From assembly GCA_027483895.1 (NCBI GenBank), contig JAIXTP010000002.1, positions 62,001 to 126,000 of the forward strand: DNA of 64,000 nucleotides, in the 5' to 3' direction. This document shows, piece by piece, positions 13,298 to 45,068 of this stretch; the stretch's first letter is position 1, and each line of letters begins with the position of its first letter. The stretch is from Hyphomicrobiales bacterium. GTDB taxonomy: Bacteria; Pseudomonadota; Alphaproteobacteria; Rhizobiales; Beijerinckiaceae. Both the position numbers and the translations under genes were made by a program. The notes beneath the pieces are model-generated. The model was not told where the DNA came from and made no database searches. It saw nothing but the letters and a program-made list of their open reading frames with translations.

Positions 13298-13610
13298 CAT
13301 CGATCTGTCCGCCTCGCCCGGCGCGGTGACCGCGCTCGTCTGGATGGCCTTCGCCACCTATCTGTGCCGTGCGGGCGGGTTCTGGCTGATGGCGCATGTG
13401 CCCATCACCGCCCGCGTACGCCGCGCCCTCGCGGCTCTTCCCGGCTCGATCATGATCTCCACGGTGCTGCCGCTCGGCGTGAAGGCGGGTCCGTCCGCCA
13501 TCGCGGCTCTCGTCGTCGCCGTTCTGGTCATGATGCGCTGGCGGAGGGACATCGTGGCCCTTGCGGCCGGCCTCGCGACGCTGTCGGCCCTGCGCGCGCT
13601 CGGCGTCTAA
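13290..13610 (+). CDS. azlD: AzlD-family branched-chain amino acid exporter, small subunit
   Basis: A 106-aa protein with three to four helices. It shows the AzlD signature TYLCRAGGFWLMAH and, near the middle, AALPGSIMISTVLPLG. It pairs with the overlapping azlC. Its stop overlaps by 4 bases with the convergent phosphatase gene, leaving no intergenic terminator. Confidence 0.93.
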   Translation: MPDIDLSASPGAVTALVWMAFATYLCRAGGFWLMAHVPITARVRRALAALPGSIMISTVLPLGVKAGPSAIAALVVAVLVMMRWRRDIVALAAGLATLSALRALGV

Positions 13611-14059
13611 CGCAGCCTTTCCGTGATGCGGTTCGTGAGCATGTCGCGCACGGCGCGATACTGCTGCATCACCTGATCGCGCGAGCCGTGCCCCTGCGCG
13701 GCGGAGGGGTCGGGCGTCGGCCAATATTCCACGTCGGCGGCCGTCGTCCGCGTCAGGTCCAGCGCCTTGTGATGGGCTTCGGGGCTCAGCGTGACGATCA
13801 GGTCGAAATTCAGCCCCTCCCATTCCTCGAGTTCCTCGAAGGTCTTGGGCCGGTGCTTGGAGGCGTCGATGCCGATCTCGTCCAGCACGGCGATCGCGAA
13901 AGCGTCCGTCTCGCCCTTCTTCACCCCGGCGGACATCACATAGATCGACTTGCCGAAGTAATGGCGGGCGATGGCCTCGGCCATGGGGGAGCGGATCGAA
14001 TTCTGGCCGCAGGCGAAAAGCACCGCCTGCACCTTCCGCCCCGCTGCATCCTCGGCCAT
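13607..14059 (-). CDS. Low molecular weight protein-tyrosine-phosphatase-like protein
   Basis: A 150-aa protein of the LMW phosphatase/arsenate reductase superfamily. The P-loop CGQNSIRSP fits CX5R(S/T), and the late motif WPTPDPS supplies the general-acid Asp. It is the last gene of the conserved murA-DUF2948-hisD-UPF0262 block. The second Cys seen in many LMW-PTP P-loops is absent. Its substrate is not known; a role as arsenate reductase is possible but there is no ars context. It begins 4 bp after the UPF0262 stop. Confidence 0.88.
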   Translation of the reverse strand: MAEDAAGRKVQAVLFACGQNSIRSPMAEAIARHYFGKSIYVMSAGVKKGETDAFAIAVLDEIGIDASKHRPKTFEELEEWEGLNFDLIVTLSPEAHHKALDLTRTTAADVEYWPTPDPSAAQGHGSRDQVMQQYRAVRDMLTNRITERLR

Positions 14060-14063
14060 CCGA

Positions 14064-14546
14064 TCAGCCTTTGAAATGCAGGGCGGTGATCAGAGTGAAG
14101 AGCCGCCGGGCCGTATCGAAATCGATCTCGATCTTCCCGGCCAGGCGTTCGAGCAGCAGGTGCGCCGCTTCGTCGTGCAGGCCCCGCCGGCCCATGTCGA
14201 TCGCCTCGATCTGCGAAGCGCTCGCGGTCCGGATCGCGGCGTAATAGCTCTCGCAGACGAGGAAATAGTCCTTCACCACGCCCCGGAACGGCGTCAGCGA
14301 CAGGATATGCGTCACGATCTGCATCCCGCCCTCGTCCTTCACGTCGAGAGCGAGCTTGTTCGAATGCAGCGACACGAAGAGCGAGTAGGGGCCGCCGTCA
14401 TGGCCCAGAGGCGCGAAGCTGTTCGACTCGATCAGGTCATAGATCGCGATCGCACGCTCGTGCTCCTGCTCGGGACCGCCCCGCCCGATCGAGTTCTCGT
14501 CGAGCGTGACCGCGATCAGCTTCTTCCTGGCGTCGCGGGCGGTCAT
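14064..14546 (-). CDS. UPF0262 family protein
   Basis: A 160-aa conserved alphaproteobacterial protein of unknown function. The start [17 protein letters not shown] at 14546 gives the normal family length; the longer open frame would run back into hisD. The strongly conserved middle ([13 protein letters not shown] and [15 protein letters not shown]) is visible. It follows hisD by 11 bp and precedes the phosphatase by 4 bp, so it is part of the operon. Confidence 0.93.
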
Positions 14547-25264: not shown

Positions 25265-26650
25265 ATGGTCCTCGTCCTTCGCCTCGTCGCGCTGCTGGTT
25301 CTCGCAGGCTTCGTCCCCGAGGCGCGCGCGCAGGGTCCCGGCGATCCTTCGGCCTCCTCCCGCGTCGCGGTCCACCCGACGACGGTCTTCACGCTCCGCT
25401 CGGGCATCGCACAGGGCCGAATGGTCTATATCGGCGTGGGCGGCGACATCGAGGGCCGGGTCAATCCCGAGCTGATGGTCCATGAGGGCGAGACCGTCCA
25501 GATCAATCTGATCAACGGCGAGGGGGCGGAACACGACATGGTCGTGGACCAATACGGGGCCCGCTCGGAGCGCGTCGTCCGCCCCGGCGCCGGCACCACA
25601 TTCGCCTTCGTCGCCGACCGGACGGGGGAGTTCGTCTATTTCTGCTCCGTCGCCGGCCATCGCGAGGCCGGCATGGAAGGCCGCATCAGGGTGATGCCCG
25701 GCGGGCGGGCGGCCATGCAGTCGTCCGCGCCCGACATCGTGCGTGATCCGACGAATCTGCCGCCCCCCATCCGGGCACGCCCGCCGCAGACCGTCCGGAT
25801 CGATCTCGAGACGGTGGAGTTGCGCGGCCGGCTCGCCGACAGGACGACCTACAGCTACTGGACCTTCGACCGCACGGTGCCCGGGCCGTTCCTGCGGGTG
25901 CGCGTCGGCGACACGGTCGAAGTCCGCCTGAAGAACGCGACCGACAGCGCGACGCTTCACTCCGTCGATTTCCACGCGGCCACCGGCCCGGGCGGAGGTG
26001 CGGAATTCACGCAGACCGAGCCGGGCAAGGAGAGCACGGTGACGTTCAAGGCCTTGATTCCGGGCCTCTACGTCTATCACTGCGCGACCCCGATGGTGGC
26101 CCACCACATCACGAACGGCATGTACGGGCTCATTCTCGTCGAGCCCGAAGGCGGCCTGCCGCAGGTCGACCGCGAATTCTACGTGATGCAGGGCGAGATC
26201 TACTCGACCCGGCCCTTCGGCACGCAGGGCGACCAGGAAATGGACTACGAGAAGCTCGTCTCGGAACGGCCGGAATATTTCCTGTTCAACGGTTCGGTCG
26301 GCGCGCTCACCCGCAGCCATCCGCTCAGGGCACGGGTCGGGGAGACCATCCGGATCTTCTTCGGCGTCGGAGGCCCCAATTTCACCTCCTCCTTCCACGT
26401 CATCGGGGAGATCTTCGATCGCGTGTACCGCGACGCGAGCCTCGGCGTGCCGCCTGCGACCGGGGTGCAGACCGTCTCCGTCCCGCCCGGAGGCGCGACC
26501 ATCGTCGAGATGAAGCTCGACCGGCCGGGCCATTACACCCTCGTCGATCACGCGCTTTCACGCGCCGAGCGCGGTCTGGCGGGTCATCTCATCGTGGAAG
26601 GGCCGGACAACGACGAGGTCATGCATCCGGGCCCCGCGGGACGGCCGTAA
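25265..26650 (+). CDS. nirK: Copper nitrite reductase with extra N-terminal cupredoxin domain
   Basis: Reduces nitrite to NO in the periplasm. It has 461 aa: signal peptide 1-22 (ends ARA), an extra cupredoxin (about 35-145) with type-1 Cu ligands His90, Cys127, His132, Met137, and a two-domain NirK (about 160-450). NirK type-1 ligands are His232, Cys273, His281, Met286; type-2 ligands are His237, His272, His429; catalytic Asp235 and His378 are present. This layout is known from the Hyphomicrobium denitrificans enzyme, where the added domain is an electron entry site. The start at 25265 follows GGGAGA. No TTG-N8-CAA site was seen upstream, unlike the second nirK. Confidence 0.93.
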   Translation: MVLVLRLVALLVLAGFVPEARAQGPGDPSASSRVAVHPTTVFTLRSGIAQGRMVYIGVGGDIEGRVNPELMVHEGETVQINLINGEGAEHDMVVDQYGARSERVVRPGAGTTFAFVADRTGEFVYFCSVAGHREAGMEGRIRVMPGGRAAMQSSAPDIVRDPTNLPPPIRARPPQTVRIDLETVELRGRLADRTTYSYWTFDRTVPGPFLRVRVGDTVEVRLKNATDSATLHSVDFHAATGPGGGAEFTQTEPGKESTVTFKALIPGLYVYHCATPMVAHHITNGMYGLILVEPEGGLPQVDREFYVMQGEIYSTRPFGTQGDQEMDYEKLVSERPEYFLFNGSVGALTRSHPLRARVGETIRIFFGVGGPNFTSSFHVIGEIFDRVYRDASLGVPPATGVQTVSVPPGGATIVEMKLDRPGHYTLVDHALSRAERGLAGHLIVEGPDNDEVMHPGPAGRP

Positions 26651-26677: not shown

Positions 26678-27685
26678 TCAGTTCTTGCCGGCCGCCTTGT
26701 CGGACAGGTCCTTGAGGCTCCGGCGGATCGGATCGAAGGGGCCGAATTTGTGCTGGTCCGCCGGATGATCGTCCGCAAAGGGCGGGAAGGGCATGTCCGC
26801 GGGCTTCTTCAGCCGGTCCGGGAAATCCTTGTCGAGATTCGCCTTGTGCGGACGCGGCCGGCTGTTGATGAAGGCGGCGACGTCATAGGCGTCCTCGTCG
26901 CCGATCGCGGGCCGGTCATGCGTGGTGCCGAGCGGCATGTTGTGCTTCACGAAAGCCGCGGCCGTGAGCAGCCGGTACATGCCGGCGCCGTCATTGTAGC
27001 TGTCCGGACCCCACAGCGGGGGGAACTGATAGCCGAGGCGATCGCCCTTCGTGCCGTTGCGGACGCCTTGGCCGTCGTCGCCGTGACAGGAGGCGCAGAC
27101 CTCCGCATAGACGCGCGCGCCGCGCTCGGGATCGGCCGGGCGGTTCGGCTCCTTGATCGGCTTGGTGCCCGCACCCGCCACGGAGGCGCCGACCGGCACC
27201 GCGGCCGAGGCCCATTTCATGTAGCCGAGCATCGCCTTCATCTCGACGGAGTCGAGCGGCAGCGGGCGGCCGTTCATCGAACGCTCCATGCAGCCGTTCA
27301 CCCGCTCTTCGAGCGTTGAGACCTCGTTCTCGCGGGCGCGATATTGCGGGAAAACGGCCCAGACACCGGTATAGGGCATGGCGAAAGGCTGCGTTCCCGC
27401 CTGCAGATGACAGCTCTGACAGGCGAGATTGTTGCCCGCATAGCGTTTGGCCGGGTCGGCCGCCTCCGGTCCGATATGCGCATAGGTCTGCGTGACGAGC
27501 TCGTGCCCCCGCTTGATCAGCCGCCCCTCGGGCGTATCCGCCACCGTCGAGACGTCCGGCACCGGCCATGCATCGAGATCGATCTTGGCGGGTCGAGCCG
27601 GTGCGGGAGCGTTCTGGGCATGCAACGCGACCGATCCCGCAGCCAAGGCGGCAGCCGCCGCGGCCGTGATGACGCTTCTTCTCAT
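26678..27685 (-). CDS. Dihaem cytochrome c, thiosulfate dehydrogenase (TsdA)-like
   Basis: A 335-aa periplasmic protein with signal peptide 1-23 and two haem motifs: CQSCH (89-93) and CASCH (197-201). The first domain matches TsdA: AGNNLACQSCHLQAGTQPF, then VFPQYRARENEVSTLEERVN and GCMERSMNG with Cys132 at the position of the unusual axial Cys ligand of haem 1. Met250 in KHNMPLG may ligate haem 2. TsdA converts thiosulfate to tetrathionate. Start at 27685 with GGGAG upstream. It converges with nirK across 27 bp. A different dihaem electron-transfer role remains possible. Confidence 0.82.
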   Translation of the reverse strand: MRRSVITAAAAAALAAGSVALHAQNAPAPARPAKIDLDAWPVPDVSTVADTPEGRLIKRGHELVTQTYAHIGPEAADPAKRYAGNNLACQSCHLQAGTQPFAMPYTGVWAVFPQYRARENEVSTLEERVNGCMERSMNGRPLPLDSVEMKAMLGYMKWASAAVPVGASVAGAGTKPIKEPNRPADPERGARVYAEVCASCHGDDGQGVRNGTKGDRLGYQFPPLWGPDSYNDGAGMYRLLTAAAFVKHNMPLGTTHDRPAIGDEDAYDVAAFINSRPRPHKANLDKDFPDRLKKPADMPFPPFADDHPADQHKFGPFDPIRRSLKDLSDKAAGKN

Positions 27686-27821
27686 GACGCTGAACTCCCG
27701 TTTTCGAAACCGCACCATCGGAACGAGGGACTCTCCGGCGGAGGGCACAGCCCCGCCATGATATAAATCAGCTTTATCTAATATTGTTCCCCTGGGGGCC
27801 GGGCCCGCGACGATGCTCGGG

Positions 27822-27995
27822 TCAGGGGCCCTCACGAGCGGCCTTTTCGGCTTCGATCGCGGCTTCGAGGGAACCGAGCGCCGCTTCGAGCTCCTCCAAT
27901 TCTTCGAGCGTGATTTCCGCCGATCGGCCCCGCGTGCCGAGCTTCGAGAGCAGGTCGCGGGTTTCGGCCAGAAGCCGGGTGAGGCTTTCGTTCAT
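27822..27995 (-). CDS. Small coiled-coil protein of unknown function
   Basis: A 57-aa ORF starting MNESLTRLLAETRDLLSKLG, with a second half rich in Leu/Glu heptads (LEELEELEAALGSLEAAI), so it is probably all-helical. GGGAG stands before the ATG at 27995. It lies upstream of the cytochrome gene on the same strand but 136 bp away, with an AT-rich stretch between (27760-27790) that looks like the promoter for the cytochrome. Family not recognised. Confidence 0.55.
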   Translation of the reverse strand: MNESLTRLLAETRDLLSKLGTRGRSAEITLEELEELEAALGSLEAAIEAEKAAREGP

Positions 27996-28279: not shown

Positions 28280-28537
28280 ATGATCGTCTGTCAGTGCAAC
28301 GCGCTCTCCGACAAGGCGATCAAGGCCTGTCTCGCGCCCGGCCCGGCCTGCCCGCGCACGCCCGCTCAGGTGCATCGCTGCTTCGGCTGCAGCGCGCAAT
28401 GCGGCGGCTGCGCGAAGACGCTGCGTAAATTGCTGGACGAGGCCGCCGCGACGGGCTGCGGCGCCTGCCCGGCGGCCTGCCCCTCTGCCGGAACCACGGC
28501 CGCGCCCGCGCTTGAAGACCTACATTCCGCTACGTAA
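28280..28537 (+). CDS. bfd: Bacterioferritin-associated ferredoxin
   Basis: An 85-aa [2Fe-2S] protein that reduces bacterioferritin to release iron. N-terminal [18 protein letters not shown] has the CxC pair; [15 protein letters not shown] has the second CxxC pair. A Cys/Ala-rich tail ([10 protein letters not shown]) extends beyond the usual ~64 residues and is unusual. The start at 28280 gives the conserved M(I/Y)VCxCN N-terminus; an ATG six codons earlier is less likely. It is followed by bfr after 31 bp, the standard pair. Confidence 0.92.
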
Positions 28538-28568
28538 GCTCACTTTCCCGAAACCGGAGGAGCCTGCG

Positions 28569-29048
28569 ATGAAGGGCGACGCACGCGTCATCGAATATCT
28601 CAACCGCGGTCTTCGCAGCGAGCTGACCGCGGTCAGCCAATACTGGCTGCATTACCGGATGCTGGAGGATTGGGGCTATCGCGATCTCGCGGCGGTCTGG
28701 CGGAAGGAAAGCATCGAGGAAATGGGCCATGCCGACCGTTTCGTCGCGCGGATCCTCTTCCTCGAAGGACACCCGAACCTGCAGACGCTCGACCCGCTGC
28801 GGATCGGCGAGAACGTGGAGGAGGTGATCTCCGCCGATCTCGCCGCCGAGCATGACGCCCTCGCGCTCTATCGCGAAGCGGCCGGCCATGCCGAGTCGGT
28901 CGGCGACCGGGTCTCGAAGACGCTGTTCGAAGAGCTGATGGCCGACGAGGAGCACCATATCGACTTCCTCGAAACCCAGCTCGGACTGATCGAACGGCTC
29001 GGTCTTCCGCTCTACGCGCAGAAGCACGTCGGATCCCCGGGGGGCTGA
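28569..29048 (+). CDS. bfr: Bacterioferritin
   Basis: A 159-aa haem-containing iron-storage subunit that forms a 24-mer. All ferroxidase ligands are in place: Glu18, Glu51, His54, Glu94, Glu127, His130; Met52 is the haem ligand. The start [15 protein letters not shown] at 28569 has CGGAGGAG upstream; the longer frame into bfd is not credible. Co-transcribed with bfd and possibly iron controlled through the dyad at 28081. Confidence 0.97.
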
Positions 29049-29102: not shown

Positions 29103-30833
29103 ATGATCATCATCGGAACGACGGGCGACGACGAACTGTCCGGCACCGACCTCGCGGACTCGATCGCGGGGCTGGCGGGCAGCGACATTCTCGACGGGCG
29201 AGACGGGCGCGACACGTTGCGCGGAGGCGACGGAGACGACCTTCTCGCAGGCGTCACGGACTCGCGCGATCTCGCCTATGCCGATGCCGGAAACGACAGG
29301 GTCGAGTTGCTGTACCTCCCGGGCGAGGATCTCGGCGCGGGCTTCGTCGACGGCGGCGCGGGCGTGGACGTGCTGGCGATCCGGACGACCTACGCCGACA
29401 TCGACCTCGACGTGACGTCATACCGACCCGAGGTAGCGGCCCGAGAGAACGACGCGCTCTTCCGAACCCCGTTCCGGCACTTCGAGCGGATCGACTTCCG
29501 GGCCGATCAGAACGCGGGCGCGAACGATTTCGTCCGCGCCGGGGATCTGGCCGACACGCTTCAGGGCGGAAGCGGCTCCGACACCTTCCATGGCGGGGCG
29601 GGAGACGACCTGCTCTTCGCGAGCGCTCCCGGGGCAGGCTCGGCCGACGATACGCTGACGGGAGATGCGGGAAACGACGTTCTCCGCGGTTCGAGCGGAA
29701 ATGATCTGATGGCGGGCGGCACCGGAGACGACACGCTGATTCAGGGCGGCGAGCGTTCGCTCGAGAGAAGCGGGGTGGGGACCGGGCTCGACACGATGGA
29801 CGGCGGCCCCGGTGACGACCTCTTCGTCGATCTCGGTATCGGAGAGACGGGCGACGGCTATTCCGGAGGAGCTTCCGTGACGGGCGGCTCCGGCCGCGAC
29901 GTCTTCGAAGTGGACGTGGCGAATCCCGACGGCGCCTTCTTCGACATCATGATCGGCGACTACGATCCTGCGGAGGATCGGCTTCTGTTCCCGTCGGACG
30001 CATTGCGCGCTTGGCTCATCGGTTCCGTTTCGGCCGAACAACGCGGAGACGATGCCGTGTTCATGACGTTCAGCCGGGGGAGTCTCGCGTCCGGCTTCGT
30101 CTATGAGGGCTTCTTCGACAAGATCGTGCTGCGCGGCGTCGATCTCGACGACGTTCTCGCGCAGCTCGGTTGGCCTCTGCCCTCCGCCCGTGCGGATACG
30201 CTGCGCGGAACGAGCGGGGACGACGTCCTGTCCGGCGGATTCGGACCGGACGTCCTGGGCGGGCTCGGCGGCGCGGACACCCTGCAGGGCGGGCAAGGCG
30301 ACGACACGCTCTTCGGCGGCGCAGACCGCGACATCGTCGCGGGCGGCTTCGGAGACGATCTCGCCTTCGGGGGTGCGGGAAACGACCGTCTGGACGGCGC
30401 CTACGGGAACGATCGGCTGTGGGGAGAGGCGGGGAACGATACGCTGATCGGCGGGCCGGGTTTCGACCGGCTTTGGGGCGGCGACGGAGACGACCTGCTG
30501 CGCGGCGACGGCGTGCTTCGCGGTCAGGCCGGCAACGATACGCTCTCGGGAAGCGGCACGATGGTCGGCGGGGAGGGGTTCGACGTCTTCCGGTTTCCGG
30601 CCCGCGGAACCGACGCGATCAGCGCGACGATCCTGGATTTCGACCCCGGTACGGACCTTCTGGACGTAACCTCATGGGGCGATCCCGACTTCGCCTCCTT
30701 CGTCGCGAACCACGTCCTGACGAGTCCCGACGGCTCCGTGTATCTCTGGCACGACATCTACCACAATGCCGACCGGATCGCGTTGCCCGGCGTGACGCCG
30801 GAGCAACTCACGCCGGACAACGTGCTCGTCTGA
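29103..30833 (+). CDS. RTX (haemolysin-type calcium-binding repeat) protein
   Basis: A 576-aa glycine/aspartate-rich protein. RTX nonapeptide blocks (GGxGxDxLx) occur at about 7-50, 150-215 and 370-490, with units such as GGDGDDLLAG, GGAGNDRLDG and GGDGDDLLRG. They fold into Ca2+-binding beta-rolls. The C-terminus (FDVFRF, then ILDFDPGTDLLDVTSW) resembles the last module of type I secretion substrates. No catalytic domain is recognised. The ATG follows AAGGAGG. No type I ABC/MFP/TolC genes are adjacent, so secretion would need genes elsewhere. Confidence 0.9.
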   Translation: MIIIGTTGDDELSGTDLADSIAGLAGSDILDGRDGRDTLRGGDGDDLLAGVTDSRDLAYADAGNDRVELLYLPGEDLGAGFVDGGAGVDVLAIRTTYADIDLDVTSYRPEVAARENDALFRTPFRHFERIDFRADQNAGANDFVRAGDLADTLQGGSGSDTFHGGAGDDLLFASAPGAGSADDTLTGDAGNDVLRGSSGNDLMAGGTGDDTLIQGGERSLERSGVGTGLDTMDGGPGDDLFVDLGIGETGDGYSGGASVTGGSGRDVFEVDVANPDGAFFDIMIGDYDPAEDRLLFPSDALRAWLIGSVSAEQRGDDAVFMTFSRGSLASGFVYEGFFDKIVLRGVDLDDVLAQLGWPLPSARADTLRGTSGDDVLSGGFGPDVLGGLGGADTLQGGQGDDTLFGGADRDIVAGGFGDDLAFGGAGNDRLDGAYGNDRLWGEAGNDTLIGGPGFDRLWGGDGDDLLRGDGVLRGQAGNDTLSGSGTMVGGEGFDVFRFPARGTDAISATILDFDPGTDLLDVTSWGDPDFASFVANHVLTSPDGSVYLWHDIYHNADRIALPGVTPEQLTPDNVLV

Positions 30834-37922: not shown

Positions 37923-37936
37923 TTGCCGGCGCGCAA
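37923..37936 (+). promoter_or_regulatory. FNR/NnrR-type box upstream of the DUF1858 gene
   Basis: TTG-CCGGCGCG-CAA, a perfect TTG-N8-CAA dyad in the extended form TTTGCCGGCGCGCAAA, 34 bp before the DUF1858 start codon. Same class as the two boxes at 40224 and 40274. Confidence 0.65.
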
Positions 37937-37970: not shown

Positions 37971-38216
37971 ATGACCGAAGCCGCATCGAACCTCTCGAAA
38001 CGGACGCTCTCCACCACGCCGGTGGACGAGATCCTGCGCAGCTGCCCGCGCTCGGCGGAAGTGTTCATCCACCGCCGGATGCATTGCGTGGGCTGCCCCA
38101 TCGCGTCCTTCCATTCCGTGGAGGACGCGTGCAGCGAACACGGGCAGGAACTCGAGGACTTCGTGGCGGATCTGTGGGCGGCCATGGCCGAGCCCCTGCC
38201 GCGGAACGAGGGCTGA
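37971..38216 (+). CDS. DUF1858 domain protein
   Basis: An 81-aa protein with a DUF1858 (ScdA-N-like) fold: STTPVDEILRSCPRSAEVFI, then HRRMHCVGCPIASFHSVEDA. Paired Cys (CVGC) and the earlier Cys may bind a metal or form a disulfide; the domain is often linked to hybrid-cluster or nitrosative-stress proteins and to electron-transfer partners. It has its own FNR-type box. Its stop is adjacent to the Crp/Fnr gene on the other strand. Confidence 0.85.
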   Translation: MTEAASNLSKRTLSTTPVDEILRSCPRSAEVFIHRRMHCVGCPIASFHSVEDACSEHGQELEDFVADLWAAMAEPLPRNEG

Positions 38217-38912
38217 TCAGGCCTCGCGGCCTTCGGCGAGCATGAACAGCCCGTGCGCGTCGACGACCAGCAGCTTCTGGCGGCCGGCCCGCACATAGCC
38301 CGCCGTTTCCCATGCGCTGATCAGCCGGCTCACGGTGTAGAGGGTCGTGCCGGTCATTTCGGCGATGTCCTGCCGCGACAGGGGCAGGTCGATCAGAATG
38401 CCGTCTTCCGTCTTCCGACCCGCCCGCCCCGCCAGCCGCAGGACGGCATGCGCGACGCGGCGTTCGACCTGCTGGGTCGACATCTCGACGACGCGGGTAT
38501 GGCTGTCCTCGAGCCGCTTGCCGATGGTCTTCATCATCACCGCGGAGAGGGCCGGGACCTTCTCGGCAAGGCTTTCCCATGCCCCGTTCGGCCAGACGAG
38601 GACGACGCTGTCTTCCACCGCCGCCGCGGTCGCGGGATAGGTCTCATGCCCCATCGTGATCGCGATCCCGAACAATTCGCCGGGCGTGACGAAGCGGATG
38701 ACGACCTGCCGTCCGTCGGGCGTCAGCTTGAAGACGCGCAGATGGCCGTGCAGCAGCAGGAAGAAGGAGGTCGAGGGCGCGCCCTGCTCGAAGACCGCGG
38801 CATCCTTCGGGAAACGGACGGAGCGCGCCTCGCGCATCACGGTGGAGAGCGCGTCGTCGTCCAGCCCGGCGAATTGCGGGAGCGAGGCGATCAGGGAGCG
38901 GTCGAGCGGCAT
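38217..38912 (-). CDS. Crp/Fnr-family transcriptional regulator (NnrR/Dnr-like)
   Basis: A 231-aa regulator. The cyclic-nucleotide-binding-like domain (about 10-125) has FLLLHGHLRVFKLTPDGRQV. The C-terminal HTH (about 150-220) has LPLSRQDIAEMTGTTLYTVS, followed by RLISAWETAGYV. The recognition helix contains the E-x-x-S-R type contact set (TxYTVSR) that fits TTG-N8-CAA sites. The protein has no Cys, so it cannot carry the FNR 4Fe-4S cluster; NnrR/Dnr haem-type sensing of NO is the best guess. GATCCCCC lies before the ATG. Nearby targets would be nirK, pseudoazurin and the DUF1858 gene. Confidence 0.88.
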   Translation of the reverse strand: MPLDRSLIASLPQFAGLDDDALSTVMREARSVRFPKDAAVFEQGAPSTSFFLLLHGHLRVFKLTPDGRQVVIRFVTPGELFGIAITMGHETYPATAAAVEDSVVLVWPNGAWESLAEKVPALSAVMMKTIGKRLEDSHTRVVEMSTQQVERRVAHAVLRLAGRAGRKTEDGILIDLPLSRQDIAEMTGTTLYTVSRLISAWETAGYVRAGRQKLLVVDAHGLFMLAEGREA

Positions 38913-39041: not shown

Positions 39042-40154
39042 TCAATGACCGACGGCCTGGGCCGACCGGGTGGGGTTGTGATCCTTGAAGACGACCGGGT
39101 TGTCCGGACCGTCGACCTGAAGGATGCCCGCCAGCCCCTTTTCGACCCGGCTCAGCGCATGGTCGACGAGGATGTAGTTGCCGGGAACCTCGACCTTGAA
39201 GTCCACGAAGGTGGCGCCGCCGGGAGGCACGGTCACCGTCTGCACGTCCTTCACCACGCCCGAGGTCGCAGACCCCATCGGATAGACCTTGTCGAAGATC
39301 TCGCCGATCACGTGGAACGAGGAGGTGAAGTTCGGGCCACCGACGCCGAAGAAGATCCGGACGGTCTCGCCCGTCTTGGCCTTCAGCGGCTTGTTCTTGG
39401 CGATGGCGCCGACGGCGCCGTTGAAGACGAAGAATTCCGGCCGCTCGTTGACGAGCTTGTCGTAGCTCTCGGTCAGTTCGCCCTTCGCGCCGATCTTCTC
39501 CTCCGTGTAGATCTCGCCCTGCATCACGTAGAACTCGCGATCCACCTTCGGCAGGCCGCCTTCGGGCTCGACGAGGATCAGGCCGTACATCCCGTTGGAG
39601 ATGTGCTGGGCCACCATCGGCGTCGCGCAGTGATAGACGTAGAGGCCCGGGTTCATCGCCTTGAACTCGAAGCCGCGACCCTCGCCGGGCGCCGCCTCCG
39701 TCGCCTTCGCACCGCCGCCGGGGCCGGTGACCGCGTGGAAGTCGACATTGTGCATCATCACGCTGTCGTCCTTGTTCTTCAGCGAGACCTCCACGGTGTC
39801 GCCGACCTTCACGCGGACGAAGGGACCCGGGACCTTGTCGTTGAAGGTCCAATATTTGTAGGTCGCGCCGTCGGCCAACTGGCCGGTCACTTCGGTCGTC
39901 TCGAAGTCGACCTTCACCCGGCGGGGGCCGCGGGCGCCGATCGGCCCGGGCAGATCCGTCGGATCGCGCACCACGTCCACGATGCTCGCCACGGTCTTGG
40001 CCGCTTCGGCATGGCCGGTCGCGGCGGACGCCATATGGACCTTGCCCTCCATGGCCGACGCGCCGAGCGTCGCTGCCGCAAGCAGAGCCGCCGCGGCGAC
40101 GCCTGCGAAGAGCGGATTGCGGGGAAGGGCGGAACGGGCGGGTTTCATCTTCAT
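39042..40154 (-). CDS. nirK: Copper nitrite reductase (class II type)
   Basis: A 370-aa periplasmic NirK, two cupredoxin domains. Signal peptide about 1-34 (hydrophobic AGVAAAALLAAATLGASA). Type-1 ligands His135, Cys176, His184, Met189; type-2 ligands His140, His175, His332; catalytic Asp138 and His281. The linker of eight residues between Cys176 and His184 is the class II (AniA-like) form. It resembles the C-terminal part of the other NirK in this window, without the extra cupredoxin. FNR-type box at 40224-40237 lies 70 bp upstream. The probable electron donor pseudoazurin is encoded divergently. Confidence 0.96.
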   Translation of the reverse strand: MKMKPARSALPRNPLFAGVAAAALLAAATLGASAMEGKVHMASAATGHAEAAKTVASIVDVVRDPTDLPGPIGARGPRRVKVDFETTEVTGQLADGATYKYWTFNDKVPGPFVRVKVGDTVEVSLKNKDDSVMMHNVDFHAVTGPGGGAKATEAAPGEGRGFEFKAMNPGLYVYHCATPMVAQHISNGMYGLILVEPEGGLPKVDREFYVMQGEIYTEEKIGAKGELTESYDKLVNERPEFFVFNGAVGAIAKNKPLKAKTGETVRIFFGVGGPNFTSSFHVIGEIFDKVYPMGSATSGVVKDVQTVTVPPGGATFVDFKVEVPGNYILVDHALSRVEKGLAGILQVDGPDNPVVFKDHNPTRSAQAVGH

Positions 40155-40223: not shown

Positions 40224-40237
40224 TTGCTTTTGCGCAA
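40224..40237. promoter_or_regulatory. FNR/NnrR-type box (nirK side)
   Basis: TTG-CTTTTGCG-CAA; perfect TTG-N8-CAA dyad 70 bp upstream of the nirK start. Confidence 0.7.
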
Positions 40238-40273: not shown

Positions 40274-40287
40274 TTGTTCCGGCGCAA
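40274..40287. promoter_or_regulatory. FNR/NnrR-type box (pseudoazurin side)
   Basis: TTG-TTCCGGCG-CAA; perfect TTG-N8-CAA dyad, flanked as TTTGTTCCGGCGCAAA, 57 bp upstream of the pseudoazurin start. Two separate boxes serve the divergent pair. Confidence 0.72.
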
Positions 40288-40344: not shown

Positions 40345-40800
40345 ATGTCTCTCGCCCGCCTGTCCCTGCCGATCGCCGCCGCAGCCTTCGCCTTCGCGGC
40401 CGGTTCGGCCTCCGCCGCCGAGATCGAGGTGCGCATGCTCAACCGGGGCGCCGATGGCCCGATGGTGTTCGAGCCCGCTTTCGTGAAGGCCGCGCCGGGC
40501 GACGTGATCCGCTTCGTCCCGACCGACAAGGGGCACAATGCCGAGACCATCGAGGGCATGCTTCCCGAAGGCACCGCCGTCGTGGTCGGCAAGATGAACG
40601 AGGAGCTGACCCTCAAGGTCGAGAAATCCGGCGTCTACGGCCTCAAATGCAAGCCGCATTACGCCATGGGCATGGTCGCGCTGGTCGTGGTCGGCGAGCC
40701 CGGTTCCGTCGACGCGGCCAAGGCCGTCCAGCATCCGGGCAAGGCGAAGACCGTCTTCGCGCAGCTCTTCGAACGCGCGGGCGCCGCGGCGTCCCGCTGA
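40345..40800 (+). CDS. Pseudoazurin (periplasmic blue copper protein)
   Basis: A 151-aa type-1 copper protein, signal peptide 1-24 (ends SASA/A). Cu ligands are His64 (KGHNAET), Cys102, His105 and Met110 (LKCKPHYAMGM), exactly the pseudoazurin pattern. It would carry electrons to NirK. The ATG follows AGAGGAG. Divergent from nirK and followed by ccoG after 43 bp. The C-terminal tail (115-151) is longer than in most pseudoazurins. Confidence 0.95.
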   Translation: MSLARLSLPIAAAAFAFAAGSASAAEIEVRMLNRGADGPMVFEPAFVKAAPGDVIRFVPTDKGHNAETIEGMLPEGTAVVVGKMNEELTLKVEKSGVYGLKCKPHYAMGMVALVVVGEPGSVDAAKAVQHPGKAKTVFAQLFERAGAAASR

Positions 40801-40843
40801 TCCGTCCGCATCCCCGTCCGGCACTTGCGAGAGGCCTTCCCCC

Positions 40844-42259
40844 ATGGTCGCCCTCGACGTTTCCCACTCCCGCCGCCGCCGCGTGTCCGACGCGGCGGTT
40901 CCCCAAAGCGTGAAGGGACGGTTCCGCCGGCTCAAGACGCGGATCGCCGTCGCGGGCTCCGCGGTGTTCTTCCTGCTGCCCTGGATCCCGTGGAACCGGG
41001 GCGAAGGCCGGCCCTACGGCGCCGTGACGTTCGATCTCGCCGCGGGCCGCTTCCATCTCTTCGGCCTCGAGCTGCGGACGCAGGAACTCTATTTCCTCAC
41101 GGGCTTCCTGCTCTTCGCCGCTCTCGGCCTCATCCTCGCCAATGCGATCGCGGGGCGGGTCTGGTGCGGCTTCGCCTGCCCGCACACGGTGTGGAGCGAC
41201 GCCTTCCTGTTCATCGAGCGGCTCGTGGAGGGCGACCGGCGCGAGCGGCTGAAGAAACGAGAGGCGAGGCTCTCGGGCCGCCGCATCGCCGAGATCGCGA
41301 CGAAGCACGCGCTCTGGATCGCGCTGTCGGCTGCGGTCGGCATCGGCACCGTGCTTTATTTCGGCGACGCGCGCGTCCTGCTCGCGGATCTCGTGGGCGG
41401 ACGCGCGGATCCGATCGCCTACGGCCTCGCGGCCTCCGTCGCGGTCACCGTTTACGCGCTGGGCGGCTTCTTCCGCGAGACGATGTGCAAATTCATGTGC
41501 CCGTGGCCGCGGCTGCAGGGCGCCATCTGGGATCCCGAGGCGCTCTCGGTCACCTATCGCGACATGCGCGGCGAGCCCCGCACCTCGCCCAAGAAGGCGG
41601 TCGAACTCCGCGCGGCCGGAAAGCCCGCGGGCGATTGCGTGGATTGCGACCTCTGCGTCGCGGTGTGCCCGATGGGCATCGATATCCGGCAGGGGCCGAG
41701 CATCGCCTGCATCAATTGCGGCCTGTGCGTCGACGCCTGCGACGGCGTGATGGGCAAGCTGTCCCGCGCCCGTGGGCTCATCGACTTCGTCGCATGGACC
41801 GAGATCGAGGCGCTCCGGCGCGGCGAGAAGCCGCTCGCTCCGCGCATCGTGCGGCCGAAGACGGCGGCGCTCGCGGCGGCATTGTTCGGGCTCGTCTTCG
41901 CGGCGGGGCTGACGCTCGAATTGCGCGTCGAGACCGCGATGAGCGTGCAGCACGACCGCAATCCGTTGTCCGTGCGCCTCTCCGACGGCCGCGTGCGGAA
42001 CGGATACACCCTTCGCGTGTCGAACAAGACCGATCAGGAACGCCGCCTGAAGCTCGAAGTGCTGGCGGCGGCCCCGGTCGAAGTCGCGGTGATCGGCGGG
42101 GAGACCGCGGCCGGCGAGATCCTGCTGCCGCCCGATGCGGACCGCGAGATCCGCGTCACCGTCGCCGCCCGGCCCGAAGCGGCCGGACCGTTGACCTTCG
42201 TCGGCGTCGACCCCGCCACGGGGCAGGACGTCCGCATCTCCGACACCTTCATCCGCTAG
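40844..42259 (+). CDS. ccoG: Cytochrome c oxidase accessory protein CcoG/FixG/RdxA
   Basis: A 471-aa membrane-bound polyferredoxin. The N-terminal membrane region carries GRVWCGFACPHTVWSD and CKFMCPWPRLQG, and two 4Fe-4S motifs follow: CVDCDLCVAVCPMGID and CINCGLCVDAC. The C-terminal Ig-like FixG domain is periplasmic. CcoG acts in copper delivery to cbb3 oxidase by reducing Cu(II). No cco structural genes are here; its place after pseudoazurin suggests service to the copper enzymes of this cluster. Confidence 0.94.
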   Translation: MVALDVSHSRRRRVSDAAVPQSVKGRFRRLKTRIAVAGSAVFFLLPWIPWNRGEGRPYGAVTFDLAAGRFHLFGLELRTQELYFLTGFLLFAALGLILANAIAGRVWCGFACPHTVWSDAFLFIERLVEGDRRERLKKREARLSGRRIAEIATKHALWIALSAAVGIGTVLYFGDARVLLADLVGGRADPIAYGLAASVAVTVYALGGFFRETMCKFMCPWPRLQGAIWDPEALSVTYRDMRGEPRTSPKKAVELRAAGKPAGDCVDCDLCVAVCPMGIDIRQGPSIACINCGLCVDACDGVMGKLSRARGLIDFVAWTEIEALRRGEKPLAPRIVRPKTAALAAALFGLVFAAGLTLELRVETAMSVQHDRNPLSVRLSDGRVRNGYTLRVSNKTDQERRLKLEVLAAAPVEVAVIGGETAAGEILLPPDADREIRVTVAARPEAAGPLTFVGVDPATGQDVRISDTFIR

Positions 42260-42268
42260 AGGCGCATC

Positions 42269-43456
42269 ATGTCACCGGTTCCGCGCTACAAACCCTTCGC
42301 CGGCCCCGCGGTGTTCACCCAAGGCTTCAGGCCGTTCTTCCTGCTCGCGGGGGTTCACGCCGCCGTGGCGGTGCCCGTCTGGCTCGCGCTTCGCGCCGGC
42401 GCCTTCGACCTGCCGACGCTGTGGTCGCCGCAGCATCTGCATGCGCATGAAATGCTGTTCGGCTATCTCGGCGCGGTGGTCGCGGGCTTCCTGCTCACCG
42501 CGGTTCCGAATTGGACGGGGCGTCTGCCGCTCCAAGGCCCGCCCCTCATCGGCCTCGTGGCGCTCTGGGTGCTGGCGCGGACGGCGGCGCCCTTTTCCGG
42601 CCTTCTGGGTCCGGTCGCATGGGCCGCGGCGGATCTCGCCTTCCCGCTCGCGCTGCTCGCCGCCATCGCCCGCGAGATCGTCGCGGGCAAGAACTGGCGC
42701 AATCTGAAGGTTCTGGTGCTGCTCACGCTGCTGCTGGCCGCAAATCTGGGCTACCACCTCGAAATCGCGTTCCACGGCCATCCGCTTTATGCCGAGCGCG
42801 CCGCCATGGCCGCCATGGTGATGCTGGTCGGGCTGATCGGCGGGCGCATCGTGCCGAGCTTCACGCTCAATCGGTTGCGCCCGCGCGGCGGGCGCCTGCC
42901 CGCCTCCTTCGGGACGCCGGATAAAGCCGCGATGATCGCGGGCGGCGTCGCGCTCGTCGCATGGACGCTGCGCCCCGACTCGCGCATCACGGCGGCGCTC
43001 GCGGCGCTCGCCGGGGTGCTGCATGTGATCCGCTGGGCCCGCTGGGCGGGCGACCGGACGGTGCGCGAGCCGATCCTGCTGGTCCTGCATCTCGCTTATC
43101 TCTTCATCCCGATCGGCTTTCTGCTCGTCGCGGCGGAGGTCCTGACCGCGTCCGTCGGTCCCGTCGCCGCCGTTCATGCATGGGGCGTCGGTGCGTTCGG
43201 ACTGATGCCGCTCGCGGTGATGACGCGCGCCTCGCTGGGGCATACGGGCCACGCTCTTTCGGCCGGCGTCGTCACGGTGGCCGGTTATGCGGCCATGTTC
43301 GCGGCCGGTCTGCTCCGCATCGGCGCGGCGACCTCGGCACCTTGGGCCGAGCCGCTGCTCCTCGCCTCGGCGGCGGCGTGGTGTGCGGCTTTCGCGGCCT
43401 TTCTGATAGGCTTCGGGCCGATCCTCACGCGCCCCGCCTTCCGTCGGCCCGCCTGA
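42269..43456 (+). CDS. nnrS: NnrS family protein (haem-copper NO-stress protein)
   Basis: A 395-aa protein with about twelve helices. The family motif SPQHLHAHEMLFGYLGAVVA leads into GFLLTAVPNWTG; further HMxxxx His residues occur at GHTGHALSAGV. NnrS members carry haem and copper and relieve nitrosative stress in denitrifiers. It starts 9 bp after ccoG and is followed by the DUF411 gene after 16 bp. Confidence 0.94.
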   Translation: MSPVPRYKPFAGPAVFTQGFRPFFLLAGVHAAVAVPVWLALRAGAFDLPTLWSPQHLHAHEMLFGYLGAVVAGFLLTAVPNWTGRLPLQGPPLIGLVALWVLARTAAPFSGLLGPVAWAAADLAFPLALLAAIAREIVAGKNWRNLKVLVLLTLLLAANLGYHLEIAFHGHPLYAERAAMAAMVMLVGLIGGRIVPSFTLNRLRPRGGRLPASFGTPDKAAMIAGGVALVAWTLRPDSRITAALAALAGVLHVIRWARWAGDRTVREPILLVLHLAYLFIPIGFLLVAAEVLTASVGPVAAVHAWGVGAFGLMPLAVMTRASLGHTGHALSAGVVTVAGYAAMFAAGLLRIGAATSAPWAEPLLLASAAAWCAAFAAFLIGFGPILTRPAFRRPA

Positions 43457-43472
43457 TTTCCGGGAGAATGCG

Positions 43473-43937
43473 ATGATCGACCGCCGTTCCTTCCTCGCCG
43501 CCGGCACCGCGCTGCTCGTCGCGGCGCCCCTGCGCGCGCAATCGGTTCCGCCGATCCGCGTCTTCAAGGATCCGGATTGCGGTTGCTGCGGTACATGGGC
43601 CGCGCGCCTGAGGGCGGCGGGTCTTCAGGTCCGCGTCGAGGAGACGCGCGATCTCGCGACCGTGCGGGCGCGGCTCGGCGTGCCCGACGCGATGGCGTCC
43701 TGTCACACGGCTGAGTTCGGCGACTACGTGCTGGAAGGCCATGTGCCGCCGGCGGAAATCCGCCGGCTCGTCGCCGAACGGCCCGTCTGCCGCGGACTGG
43801 CCGTGCCCGGAATGCCCGTCGGGTCTCCGGGCATGGAGACGCCGGGCGCCGTTCCCGACGTCTATGACGTGATGCTGTTCGGCGGTTGCGGCGGCCCCGA
43901 GGTCTTCGCGCGGTATCGCGGGACGGAGCGGATCTGA
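43473..43937 (+). CDS. DUF411 (CopG-like) periplasmic metal-binding protein
   Basis: A 154-aa exported protein with a Tat/Sec-like leader MIDRRSFLAAGTALLVAAP. The DUF411 core has FKDPDCGCCGTWAARL (Cys36, Cys38, Cys39) and MASCHTAEFGDYVLEGHVPP, with GMPVGSPGME containing a Met-rich loop. DUF411 proteins bind copper or reduce oxidised metal sites in the periplasm. Its position at the end of the pseudoazurin-ccoG-nnrS unit suggests copper supply to NirK or pseudoazurin. It converges with the rhodanese gene across 4 bp. Confidence 0.87.
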   Translation: MIDRRSFLAAGTALLVAAPLRAQSVPPIRVFKDPDCGCCGTWAARLRAAGLQVRVEETRDLATVRARLGVPDAMASCHTAEFGDYVLEGHVPPAEIRRLVAERPVCRGLAVPGMPVGSPGMETPGAVPDVYDVMLFGGCGGPEVFARYRGTERI

Positions 43938-43941
43938 CCGC

Positions 43942-44286
43942 TCAGGCCTCGATCGCGCCGCCTCGGGCGATCCAGCCGCCCGTGCCCGGCGCGTAATGCA
44001 CGGCCTCGCGGCCCGCCGCGCGGACCTCGCGCAGAGCGCGGAGGGAGCGCCCTCCGGCCTGACAGACGAGGATCACCGGCCCGTCATGAGGCGGGAGGTC
44101 GGCGGGCGAGAAGCGCGAGAGCGGCAGGTTGACCGCGCCCGGAATGTGCCCATTGGCGAACTCGTTCGGCTCGCGCACGTCGATGATCGGCGTGCCCGCA
44201 TCCACGGCCCGCAGCATCGCCTCGTGATCGACGGTCAGGTCGGCGCCGCCGCCGCCGAGCAGCCCTTTGAGGAAGCCCAGCATCAC
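43942..44286 (-). CDS. Rhodanese-domain sulfurtransferase
   Basis: A 114-aa single rhodanese domain. Motifs TPIIDVREPNEFANGHIPGA and ILVCQAGGRSLRA, with catalytic Cys75 in a six-residue CQAGGR loop. A Gly-rich N-terminus precedes the domain. The last gene of the BigR-like operon; the start overlaps the AhpD-like stop (ATGA). Proposed role: persulfide transfer or sulfide detoxification, as in YgaP. Confidence 0.92.
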   Translation of the reverse strand: MMLGFLKGLLGGGGADLTVDHEAMLRAVDAGTPIIDVREPNEFANGHIPGAVNLPLSRFSPADLPPHDGPVILVCQAGGRSLRALREVRAAGREAVHYAPGTGGWIARGGAIEA

Positions 44287-44642
44287 GCGGTCGCGTTCTT
44301 CGCGGCGAACTGATCGAAGGCTTCGACGGCGTGGCTCGCATACATGACCGACGGGCCAGCGCCCATATAGATCGCGAGGCCGAGGGTCTCGAGCACCTCC
44401 TCGCGCGTCGCGCCATGAGTTACCGCCGCCTTCGCATGGAAGGCGATGCAGTCGTCGCAGCGGATGGCGACGCCGATCGCCAGCGCGATCAGCTCCTTGG
44501 TCTTCGTGTCGAGCGCCTCGGGCTTCAGCGCCGACTGCGCGATGGCGGAGAAATTCTTCATCACCTCGGGGGCACCGCCGCGCAGGTCGCGCAGCGGGCC
44601 GGAGGACAGCGTTTCGGCGAAGGCGGCCCAGTCACGGAGCAT
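44283..44642 (-). CDS. AhpD-like carboxymuconolactone decarboxylase family protein
   Basis: A 119-aa CMD-domain protein with the redox motif RCDDCIAFHAKAAV (Cys62, Cys65, His69) of AhpD-type peroxidase partners rather than true decarboxylases. The central TKTKELIALAIGVAI helix is typical. It follows the haemoglobin gene by 15 bp and overlaps the rhodanese start by 4. Likely a thiol oxidoreductase acting on peroxide or persulfide stress. Confidence 0.9.
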   Translation of the reverse strand: MLRDWAAFAETLSSGPLRDLRGGAPEVMKNFSAIAQSALKPEALDTKTKELIALAIGVAIRCDDCIAFHAKAAVTHGATREEVLETLGLAIYMGAGPSVMYASHAVEAFDQFAAKNATA

Positions 44643-44657
44643 CGGGAAATCCTTTCG

Positions 44658-45068
44658 TCAGTCGCGGTTGCGCATATGCGCCGCAAGGGATTCGACCCGC
44701 GGCATCAGGAAGGCGGTGAGTTCCGGCTTGTCGACGACCGTTTCGGCCCATGCCCTGCGGAAGCAGAGCAGCCAGCCGTCGATCTCCGCCGTTCCGATGG
44801 GCGCATGCAGATGCCGCGCCCGCAGCATCGGCGGTCCGCGTCGCTCGACGAAGAGCGGCGGCCCGCCGAGCCAGCCGGTGAGATATTCGAACAGTTTCTC
44901 GCGGCTCTCGCTCATGTCGGCCGGGTGGATCGCGCGGCAGGCGGCGGCTTCCGGCAATTCGTCCATGAGGTCGTAGAACCGGTCCACGAGGCGTCGGATC
45001 CCGGCTTCGCCGCCGCAGACCTCGTAGAGCGTCTTCGCGGGAACGGCGCTTTCGGAGGCTTCTGTCAC
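44658..45068 (-). CDS. Group II truncated haemoglobin
   Basis: A 136-aa 2-on-2 globin. Proximal His86 in LRARHLHAPI, Trp99 at G8 (IDGWLLCFRRA) and Phe31-Tyr32 at B9-B10 identify group II, which binds O2 tightly and can scavenge NO or peroxide. The start codon is GTG at 45066-45068 and overlaps the stop of the preceding 39-codon gene (GTGA), so coupling fixes the start. Role in this operon: likely protection from sulfide/NO/oxygen stress. Confidence 0.93.
   Translation of the reverse strand: MTEASESAVPAKTLYEVCGGEAGIRRLVDRFYDLMDELPEAAACRAIHPADMSESREKLFEYLTGWLGGPPLFVERRGPPMLRARHLHAPIGTAEIDGWLLCFRRAWAETVVDKPELTAFLMPRVESLAAHMRNRD

Follow-up and report, generated by a model that had tools for sequence, protein, structure and literature searches.

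Genes and control region of the locus

The window analysed here, a 64-kb stretch of the genome of a Hyphomicrobiales bacterium (contig JAIXTP010000002.1, positions 62,001–126,000), carries on its forward strand a run of four closely spaced genes for pseudoazurin, a member of the CcoG family, NnrS and a DUF411 protein. The run opens with paz (40345..40800), which encodes the blue copper electron carrier pseudoazurin (equivalog TIGR02375, 155.6 bits; cut-off, 109.85) with the motifs GHN at 63 and CKPHYAMGM at 102, presumably its copper-ligand motifs. Then follow a ccoG paralogue belonging to the denitrification-linked clade described below (40844..42259; 471 amino acids; TIGR02745, 403.5 bits, equivalog cut-off 316.7; PF11614, 69 bits), nnrS, which encodes a nitric oxide (NO)-response membrane protein (42269..43456; PF05940, 342.7 bits; cut-off, 28), and a gene for a DUF411 protein resembling the periplasmic copper proteins CopG and CutG (43473..43937; PF04214, 86.8 bits; cut-off, 27). 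The three intergenic gaps measure 43, 9 and 16 bp, respectively. An earlier note on this DNA had described this run and the lack of an oxidase gene around it; we found all four genes in the places it gave, each passing a curated model, and queries with ccoN, ccoO, ccoP and ccoI had no match in the 64-kb window at 1e-5.

The gene for copper nitrite reductase, nirK (39042..40154, reverse strand; TIGR02376, 332.4 bits, cut-off 296.3; the lower-scoring class of this model), diverges from paz across a spacer of 190 bp, and its product carries the motifs HNVDFH, YHC, MVAQH and FHVIG. The window also holds a second NirK gene (25265–26650, forward; TIGR02376, 363 bits), the product of which is 62% identical to the first NirK over 324 residues and has an additional N-terminal cupredoxin domain; it is adjoined by a gene for a SoxA/TsdA-like dihaem cytochrome c (26678–27835, reverse). 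Beyond the first nirK lie genes for a CRP/FNR-family regulator (38217..38912, reverse; PF00027 and PF13545) and a DUF1858/TIGR03980 redox-disulphide protein (37971..38216, forward; 75.2 bits for TIGR03980). The regulator reaches no curated NCBIfam cut-off and is probably NnrR-like by its neighbourhood, the DUF1858 gene agreeing with NnrR.

Two predicted NnrR/FNR-type boxes lie in the nirK–paz spacer: TTGCTTTTGCGCAA (40224..40237), 69 bp before nirK, and TTGTTCCGGCGCAA (40274..40287), 57 bp before paz-ccoG-nnrS-DUF411. The pattern TTG-N8-CAA occurs four times in the window (3.75 expected), and two of the four occurrences fall within these 190 bp. A third box (37923–37936), 34 bp before the DUF1858 gene, suggests that this gene may belong to the same regulon. 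A sigma-70 scan gave no promoter-like site. The reported NnrR consensus is ctTTGcgnnnncgCAAag (PMC1274295), Bradyrhizobium nirK carries TTGTTGCAGCGCAA, and the DUF1858 gene that adjoins nnrR in Bradyrhizobium is NnrR-dependent (PMC6710368). The locus resembles the alphaproteobacterial NnrR regulon in that nirK and paz are each preceded by a TTG-N8-CAA box whose half-sites include GCGCAA, and in its adjacent CRP/FNR and DUF1858 genes, as at Bradyrhizobium nnrR; it differs in that ccoG is not named as a member in the available portions of either report (PMC1274295, PMC6710368). From the boxes and the neighbourhood we infer that NnrR itself may control the run.

A second ccoG accompanies the cbb3 oxidase genes

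The assembly, 3.15 Mb in 37 contigs at 93% completeness, contains two ccoG genes, one ccoN, a single nnrS and a single DUF411 gene. Its sole cbb3 operon lies away from the window on contig C6 (G000:C6) in the order ccoN, ccoO, ccoP, second ccoG and ccoI, with this ccoG starting 3.4 kb past the start of ccoN. The earlier note had proposed looking for a second ccoG with the cbb3 genes; that copy exists, behind ccoNOP, and we therefore rejected the reading that the window ccoG is the only one of the genome and that cbb3 depends on it. Because the sole cbb3 operon is elsewhere and has its own ccoG, the window gene is a paralogue (45% protein identity to the cbb3-linked CcoG) rather than a displaced cbb3 gene. 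About 130 bp 5′ of ccoN, the cbb3 operon has TTGACTCTGATCAA, a box of the other half-site type. A PF00115 search of the genome returned only ccoN, an aa3-like gene and a third haem-copper oxidase subunit I (L198; G000:C36:109347–110702; 96 bits against a CtaD cut-off of 670.75), so that no clear norB was identified.

The window CcoG belongs to a separate clade

The window CcoG passes the TIGR02745 cut-off and has two 4Fe-4S motifs, membrane CxxxC motifs (C108/C112 and C215/C219) and a C-terminal FixG/Ig-like domain (FixG_C; PF11614), with PF13746 also matched. The best PDB match of its predicted structure (mean predicted local distance difference test (pLDDT) score, 84.5) was the FixG-related 2R39, covering the C-terminal Ig-like part only. 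Neither the window gene nor any of the 29 relatives defined below adjoins ccoNOQP or ccoHIS, and we therefore regard it as a CcoG-family paralogue and not as a cbb3 assembly gene.

Relatives were collected by score against the window protein. In a sample of the order, 13 of 397 genomes (window included) carry a ccoG scoring at least 475 bits, the next score being 437; in a sample of the family, 20 of 328 genomes reached the threshold. Nineteen of these, the window among them, scored at least 468 bits; the remaining one (G034, 450 bits) was left out of the clade set as part of a cbb3 operon. With two genomes common to both samples, 30 genomes carry a clade ccoG (29 relatives and the window), and two copies from Pannonibacter plasmids bring the set to 32 proteins. 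All 32 fall on one side of a branch with Shimodaira–Hasegawa-like approximate likelihood ratio test (SH-aLRT) support of 100 in a tree of 98 rows, and the same branch, also with a support of 100, set apart 15 clade proteins in a first tree of 84 rows. Both trees are of a quick type with SH-aLRT support only. For the first, a set of 137 distinct ccoG sequences and the window gene was thinned by removing most Azospirillum entries, many from gammaproteobacteria and Bacteroidota, and two that were duplicates or fragments; the second was built after the removal of three rows on long branches. The window row itself sits on a long end branch. In a sample of the class (385 genomes, one clade ccoG as the query), the window gene scored 510 bits, against 482 for the best cbb3-type gene within the order and at most 440 for any genome outside it. 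A scan of genome contigs yielded 73 ccoG loci, mostly cbb3-type or distant; the 18 of these 73 that entered the first tree all fell outside the clade.

All 12 iron–sulphur and membrane cysteines are kept in 32/32 clade proteins. Position 224 is leucine in all 32 and isoleucine or phenylalanine in the other rows, position 343 is leucine or isoleucine in all 32 and tyrosine in 66/66 other rows, and positions 291 and 296 differ from other CcoG proteins in most clade rows. Position 110, which a first set had suggested as diagnostic, failed in the larger set. Relative to the CcoG/FixG/RdxA proteins of ccoGHIS (Rhodobacter capsulatus; PMC7558416, PMC8267372), the clade thus shares the family, the domain order, all cysteines and the Ig-like C terminus, and differs in its own branch, in its residues at 224 and 343 and in its neighbours, which are paz, nnrS, nirK, nos, nor and nar genes.

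Extra ccoG genes also occur outside this clade. Four of them form another small clade (L122, L123, L124 and L148), and L122–L124, each with 14–19 kb of context, have no ccoNOP beside ccoG; Bradyrhizobium blr5778, a second, microoxia-induced CcoG (PMC6515984), may belong to this group. In Azospirillum, no ccoN/O/P or ccoI was detected within flanks of up to 8 kb around the ccoG genes of L006–L015, L017 and L071; in both loci inspected gene by gene (L006 and L015), ccoG is followed by a small unnamed gene of similar kind.

Clade ccoG genes lie among nitrogen-oxide genes

The 29 relatives' loci had been selected on ccoG score with context disregarded, whereas the 26 comparison loci came from search matches near the window protein and are not random. 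Ten of the 29 are from one genus and four from another, and the context tests ignore kinship. The loci span at most 20 kb and some are cut short by the end of a contig, which makes the number with a nearby nirK a minimum.

A nirK, paz or nnrS gene is nearby in 23/29 clade loci and in 0/26 other ccoG loci, whereas ccoN/O/P or ccoI is nearby in 0/29 and 20/26, respectively. When narG and nosZ neighbours are included, the setting is one of nitrogen-oxide metabolism in 26/29 clade loci. The six without nirK, paz or nnrS are L112, L165, L227, L111, L159 and L226; narG adjoins ccoG in L112, nosZ is near ccoG in L165, L227 and L229, and nosL is near it in L216. The order paz-ccoG-nnrS, identical to that of the window, recurs in 10/10 genomes of a related genus (g32), on which ground we rejected a chance neighbourhood; in nine of these ten loci a CRP/FNR gene diverges from paz, its product 60–64% identical to the window regulator, and in one (L217) norC/norB-like genes and nirK follow the three genes. 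Elsewhere the arrangement is nirK-nirV-ccoG-paz-nnrS (L156, L158 and L160–L162, with one more gene before ccoG in L158) or nirK-nirV-ccoG (L163), or nnrS follows ccoG (L109, L110 and L230). The two Pannonibacter plasmids carry their clade ccoG with nnrS, DUF2249 and norEF-like genes. In L163 (G248; 13434–14370, reverse), genes for a PCuAC copper chaperone and a weakly YtkA-like protein lie directly upstream of nirK-nirV-ccoG.

NirK neighbours come from both TIGR02376 score classes, about 520–531 bits in L156, L158 and L160–L163 and 319–338 bits in the window, L157 and g32, so the pairing of ccoG with NirK is not tied to one NirK type. Jain and Shapleigh reportedly described nirK-nirV-pseudoazurin genes in Rhodobacter sphaeroides 2.4.3 in 2001 (as cited in PMC10356946). 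The loci L156, L158 and L160–L162 similarly hold nirK, a nirV-like gene (FGE-sulfatase domain) and paz together, but with ccoG inserted within the operon; the run in the window has no nirV. A SAR11 nirK–cbb3 region likewise groups nirK with genes for pseudoazurin, CcoG and a Crp-Fnr protein, but there ccoG accompanies ccoNOQP as the usual ccoGHIS copy (PMC12816887).

The boxes recur with the genes. A TTG-N8-CAA box precedes the paz match by no more than 420 bp in 16/16 related clusters and precedes nirK in all six related clusters tested, and in L223 the word before paz is identical to that of Bradyrhizobium nirK. A regulator 52–64% identical to that of the window is encoded in 16/29 loci (L109, L156, L158, L160–L163, L216–L219 and L221–L225). 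Among the 13 loci without paz, five have a box before ccoG and eight have none; five of these eight (L110, L112, L157, L228 and L230) have an Rrf2-like gene within 1 kb (two checked by Pfam).

Co-occurrence across genomes points in the same direction. In the order sample, nirK is present in 12 of the 13 genomes with a clade ccoG and in 86/397 overall (Fisher's test, 6e-8, kinship ignored), and nnrS in 13/13 and 194/397 (7e-5, kinship ignored). Across both samples, 24/30 genomes with a clade ccoG encode a NirK above the cut-off. Two genus mates of the window organism have neither nirK nor a clade ccoG, a double absence that fits a joint gain or loss of the two genes.

DUF411 is a local, CopG-like addition

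The DUF411 protein contains C36-G-C38-C39 (CxCC) and M114-x6-M121 (Mx6M), bearing out the clustered cysteines and methionines seen in the earlier note; CxCC and Mx6M are the copper motifs named for CutG/CopG (PMC8456105). It matches CopG (PDB 6WIS) over 123 residues (97.5 bits, E = 6.6e-27) and begins with RRSFLA, twin-arginine-like by eye. A link to copper-resistance genes, frequent but not universal for CopG/CutG, was not found: the window gene lies between nnrS and a rhodanese gene rather than with copA, cueO or cus genes, and HlyD/RND genes are 1.8 kb away. The protein is thus CopG-like by sequence and lies outside any known copper-resistance operon. DUF411 occurs in 0/29 relatives' loci. 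We therefore regard it as having been added to the run locally and reject its place as a conserved part of the unit, which the earlier note had assumed.

The rhodanese gene converges on the DUF411 gene at a distance of 4 bp, and is one of three convergent genes (43942–45068, reverse) that encode a rhodanese, an AhpD-like protein (CMD family) and a truncated haemoglobin; globin-like genes near a clade ccoG also occur in L109, L112, L157 and L228. Farther off in the window, a gene for a protein rich in RTX calcium-binding repeats (29103–30833, forward; PF00353, 155.7 bits) adjoins a ferritin-like gene (28512–29048).

A proposed copper-handling role in denitrification

The paralogy of the window ccoG, its separate clade, its gene neighbours and the boxes are direct observations. 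Building on these, we consider it rather probable that the paralogue serves the copper proteins of denitrification instead of cbb3, in an anaerobic operon under nitrogen-oxide control. Judging by the boxes and the neighbourhood, low oxygen and NO would act through the CRP/FNR (NnrR-like) regulator at the two nirK–paz boxes. The paralogue, with two iron–sulphur clusters, would then reduce Cu(II) to Cu(I), as its homology and its 12/12 conserved cysteines suggest: CcoG of R. capsulatus is a characterized cupric reductase (PMC7558416) with two iron–sulphur clusters and two copper sites (PMC7558416, PMC8456105). Given the gene neighbours, Cu(I) might travel by the copper export and chaperone route and end up in NirK and pseudoazurin, and also in NosZ in relatives; NnrS might be one more client or might protect against NO. 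In this species only, the DUF411/CopG protein may buffer periplasmic copper.

Several points weigh against this reading. The published model has CcoG passing Cu(I) on to CopZ and P1B ATPases (PMC8456105); an exporter would thus be required for delivery to the periplasm, and no copper exporter gene lies among paz, ccoG, nnrS and DUF411. Loss of ccoG in Campylobacter removes about half of the oxidase activity without rescue by copper (PMC8267372), and CutG is not essential for CutO activity in R. capsulatus (PMC8456105). The absence of DUF411 from relatives' loci counts here too, as do three of the 29 loci (L111, L159 and L226) with no nitrogen-oxide gene. No NirK above the cut-off is encoded in 6/30 genomes (G017, G021, G853, G884, G940 and G953), and in two of these (G021 and G853) the clade ccoG has nar genes as its neighbours and no copper enzyme was seen close to it. 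Finally, we found neither copper nor activity measurements on members of this clade in the literature. The six genomes without NirK led us to reject the idea that the clade is no more than a nirK factor; the case for NirK as the special client, favoured in the earlier note, is further weakened in that nnrS, nos, nor or nar genes take the neighbour place of nirK. What stands of that proposal is copper for denitrification more broadly, in that the clade tracks denitrification and NO genes throughout the order and lies behind NnrR-like boxes.

Alternatively, the paralogue could be an iron–sulphur membrane protein through which, as with NapH or NosR, the quinol pool supplies electrons to pseudoazurin (or NirK or NosZ), without acting on copper ions. 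One clade CcoG weakly matches the NapH/MauN ferredoxin-type models (42 and 39.4 bits, below cut-off), paz is the direct neighbour in 16/30 clusters (the window and 15/29) and nosZ is near 3/29 loci. Yet paz is missing from 13/29 loci, the window CcoG scores above the CcoG equivalog cut-off and retains the periplasmic FixG_C domain, and it has no detectable FMN-binding domain, which the NosR-like proteins of L165 and L227 do have; we consider such an electron bridge unlikely. The broader idea that the clade dropped copper reduction altogether and became a new quinol-linked iron–sulphur electron input to pseudoazurin or the copper enzymes of denitrification (by change of partner, NnrS) seems to us quite unlikely. 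We also consider it unlikely, to the same degree as the electron bridge, that the paralogue acts with NnrS in NO protection, with paz and nirK as mere neighbours within the regulon. This would suit the constancy of nnrS as a neighbour (23/29 loci; 13/13 order-sample genomes), its match 3–29 bp after ccoG in 12/29 loci (L110, L216–L225 and L230) and the description of NnrS as a hypothetical haem-copper protein (PMC1274295); but nnrS occurs in 194/397 genomes of the order, mostly without a clade ccoG, and ccoG in L112, L163, L165 and L227 accompanies nar, nirK-nirV or nos genes, with nnrS not its direct neighbour.

Anoxia is the condition in which Cu(I) is most harmful. CcoG and DUF411 might thus lower periplasmic copper toxicity in general, with shared anaerobic control as the sole link to denitrification; CcoG of R. 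capsulatus also affects copper tolerance (PMC7558416), and CopG has been linked to anaerobic copper resistance (PMC8456105). Such a role is very unlikely here, with DUF411 in none of the 29 relatives' loci, no copA, cueO or cusCBA beside ccoG (judged by eye in the loci inspected gene by gene) and neighbours that are denitrification rather than resistance genes.

Implications

In our search of the literature, which took in few subscription papers, we found no work that by its title or the opening of its abstract deals with a link of CcoG or fixG to NnrS, of CcoG to nirK, or of a CcoG paralogue to denitrification. The new element, as our results suggest, is a denitrification-linked branch of the known CcoG family that may provide a copper-handling step for denitrification. 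Were the electron-input reading true instead, some Hyphomicrobiales would have an electron route to NirK or NosZ that by-passes cytochrome bc1. If the copper-handling role holds, it would explain why such genes, with no oxidase nearby, are annotated as cytochrome c oxidase accessory proteins, and it would link copper shortage to incomplete denitrification, with release of nitrite or N2O. To our knowledge, NirK has no known maturation factor dedicated to its copper, and a CcoG branch found in the company of nirK, paz, nnrS and nos would offer a candidate.

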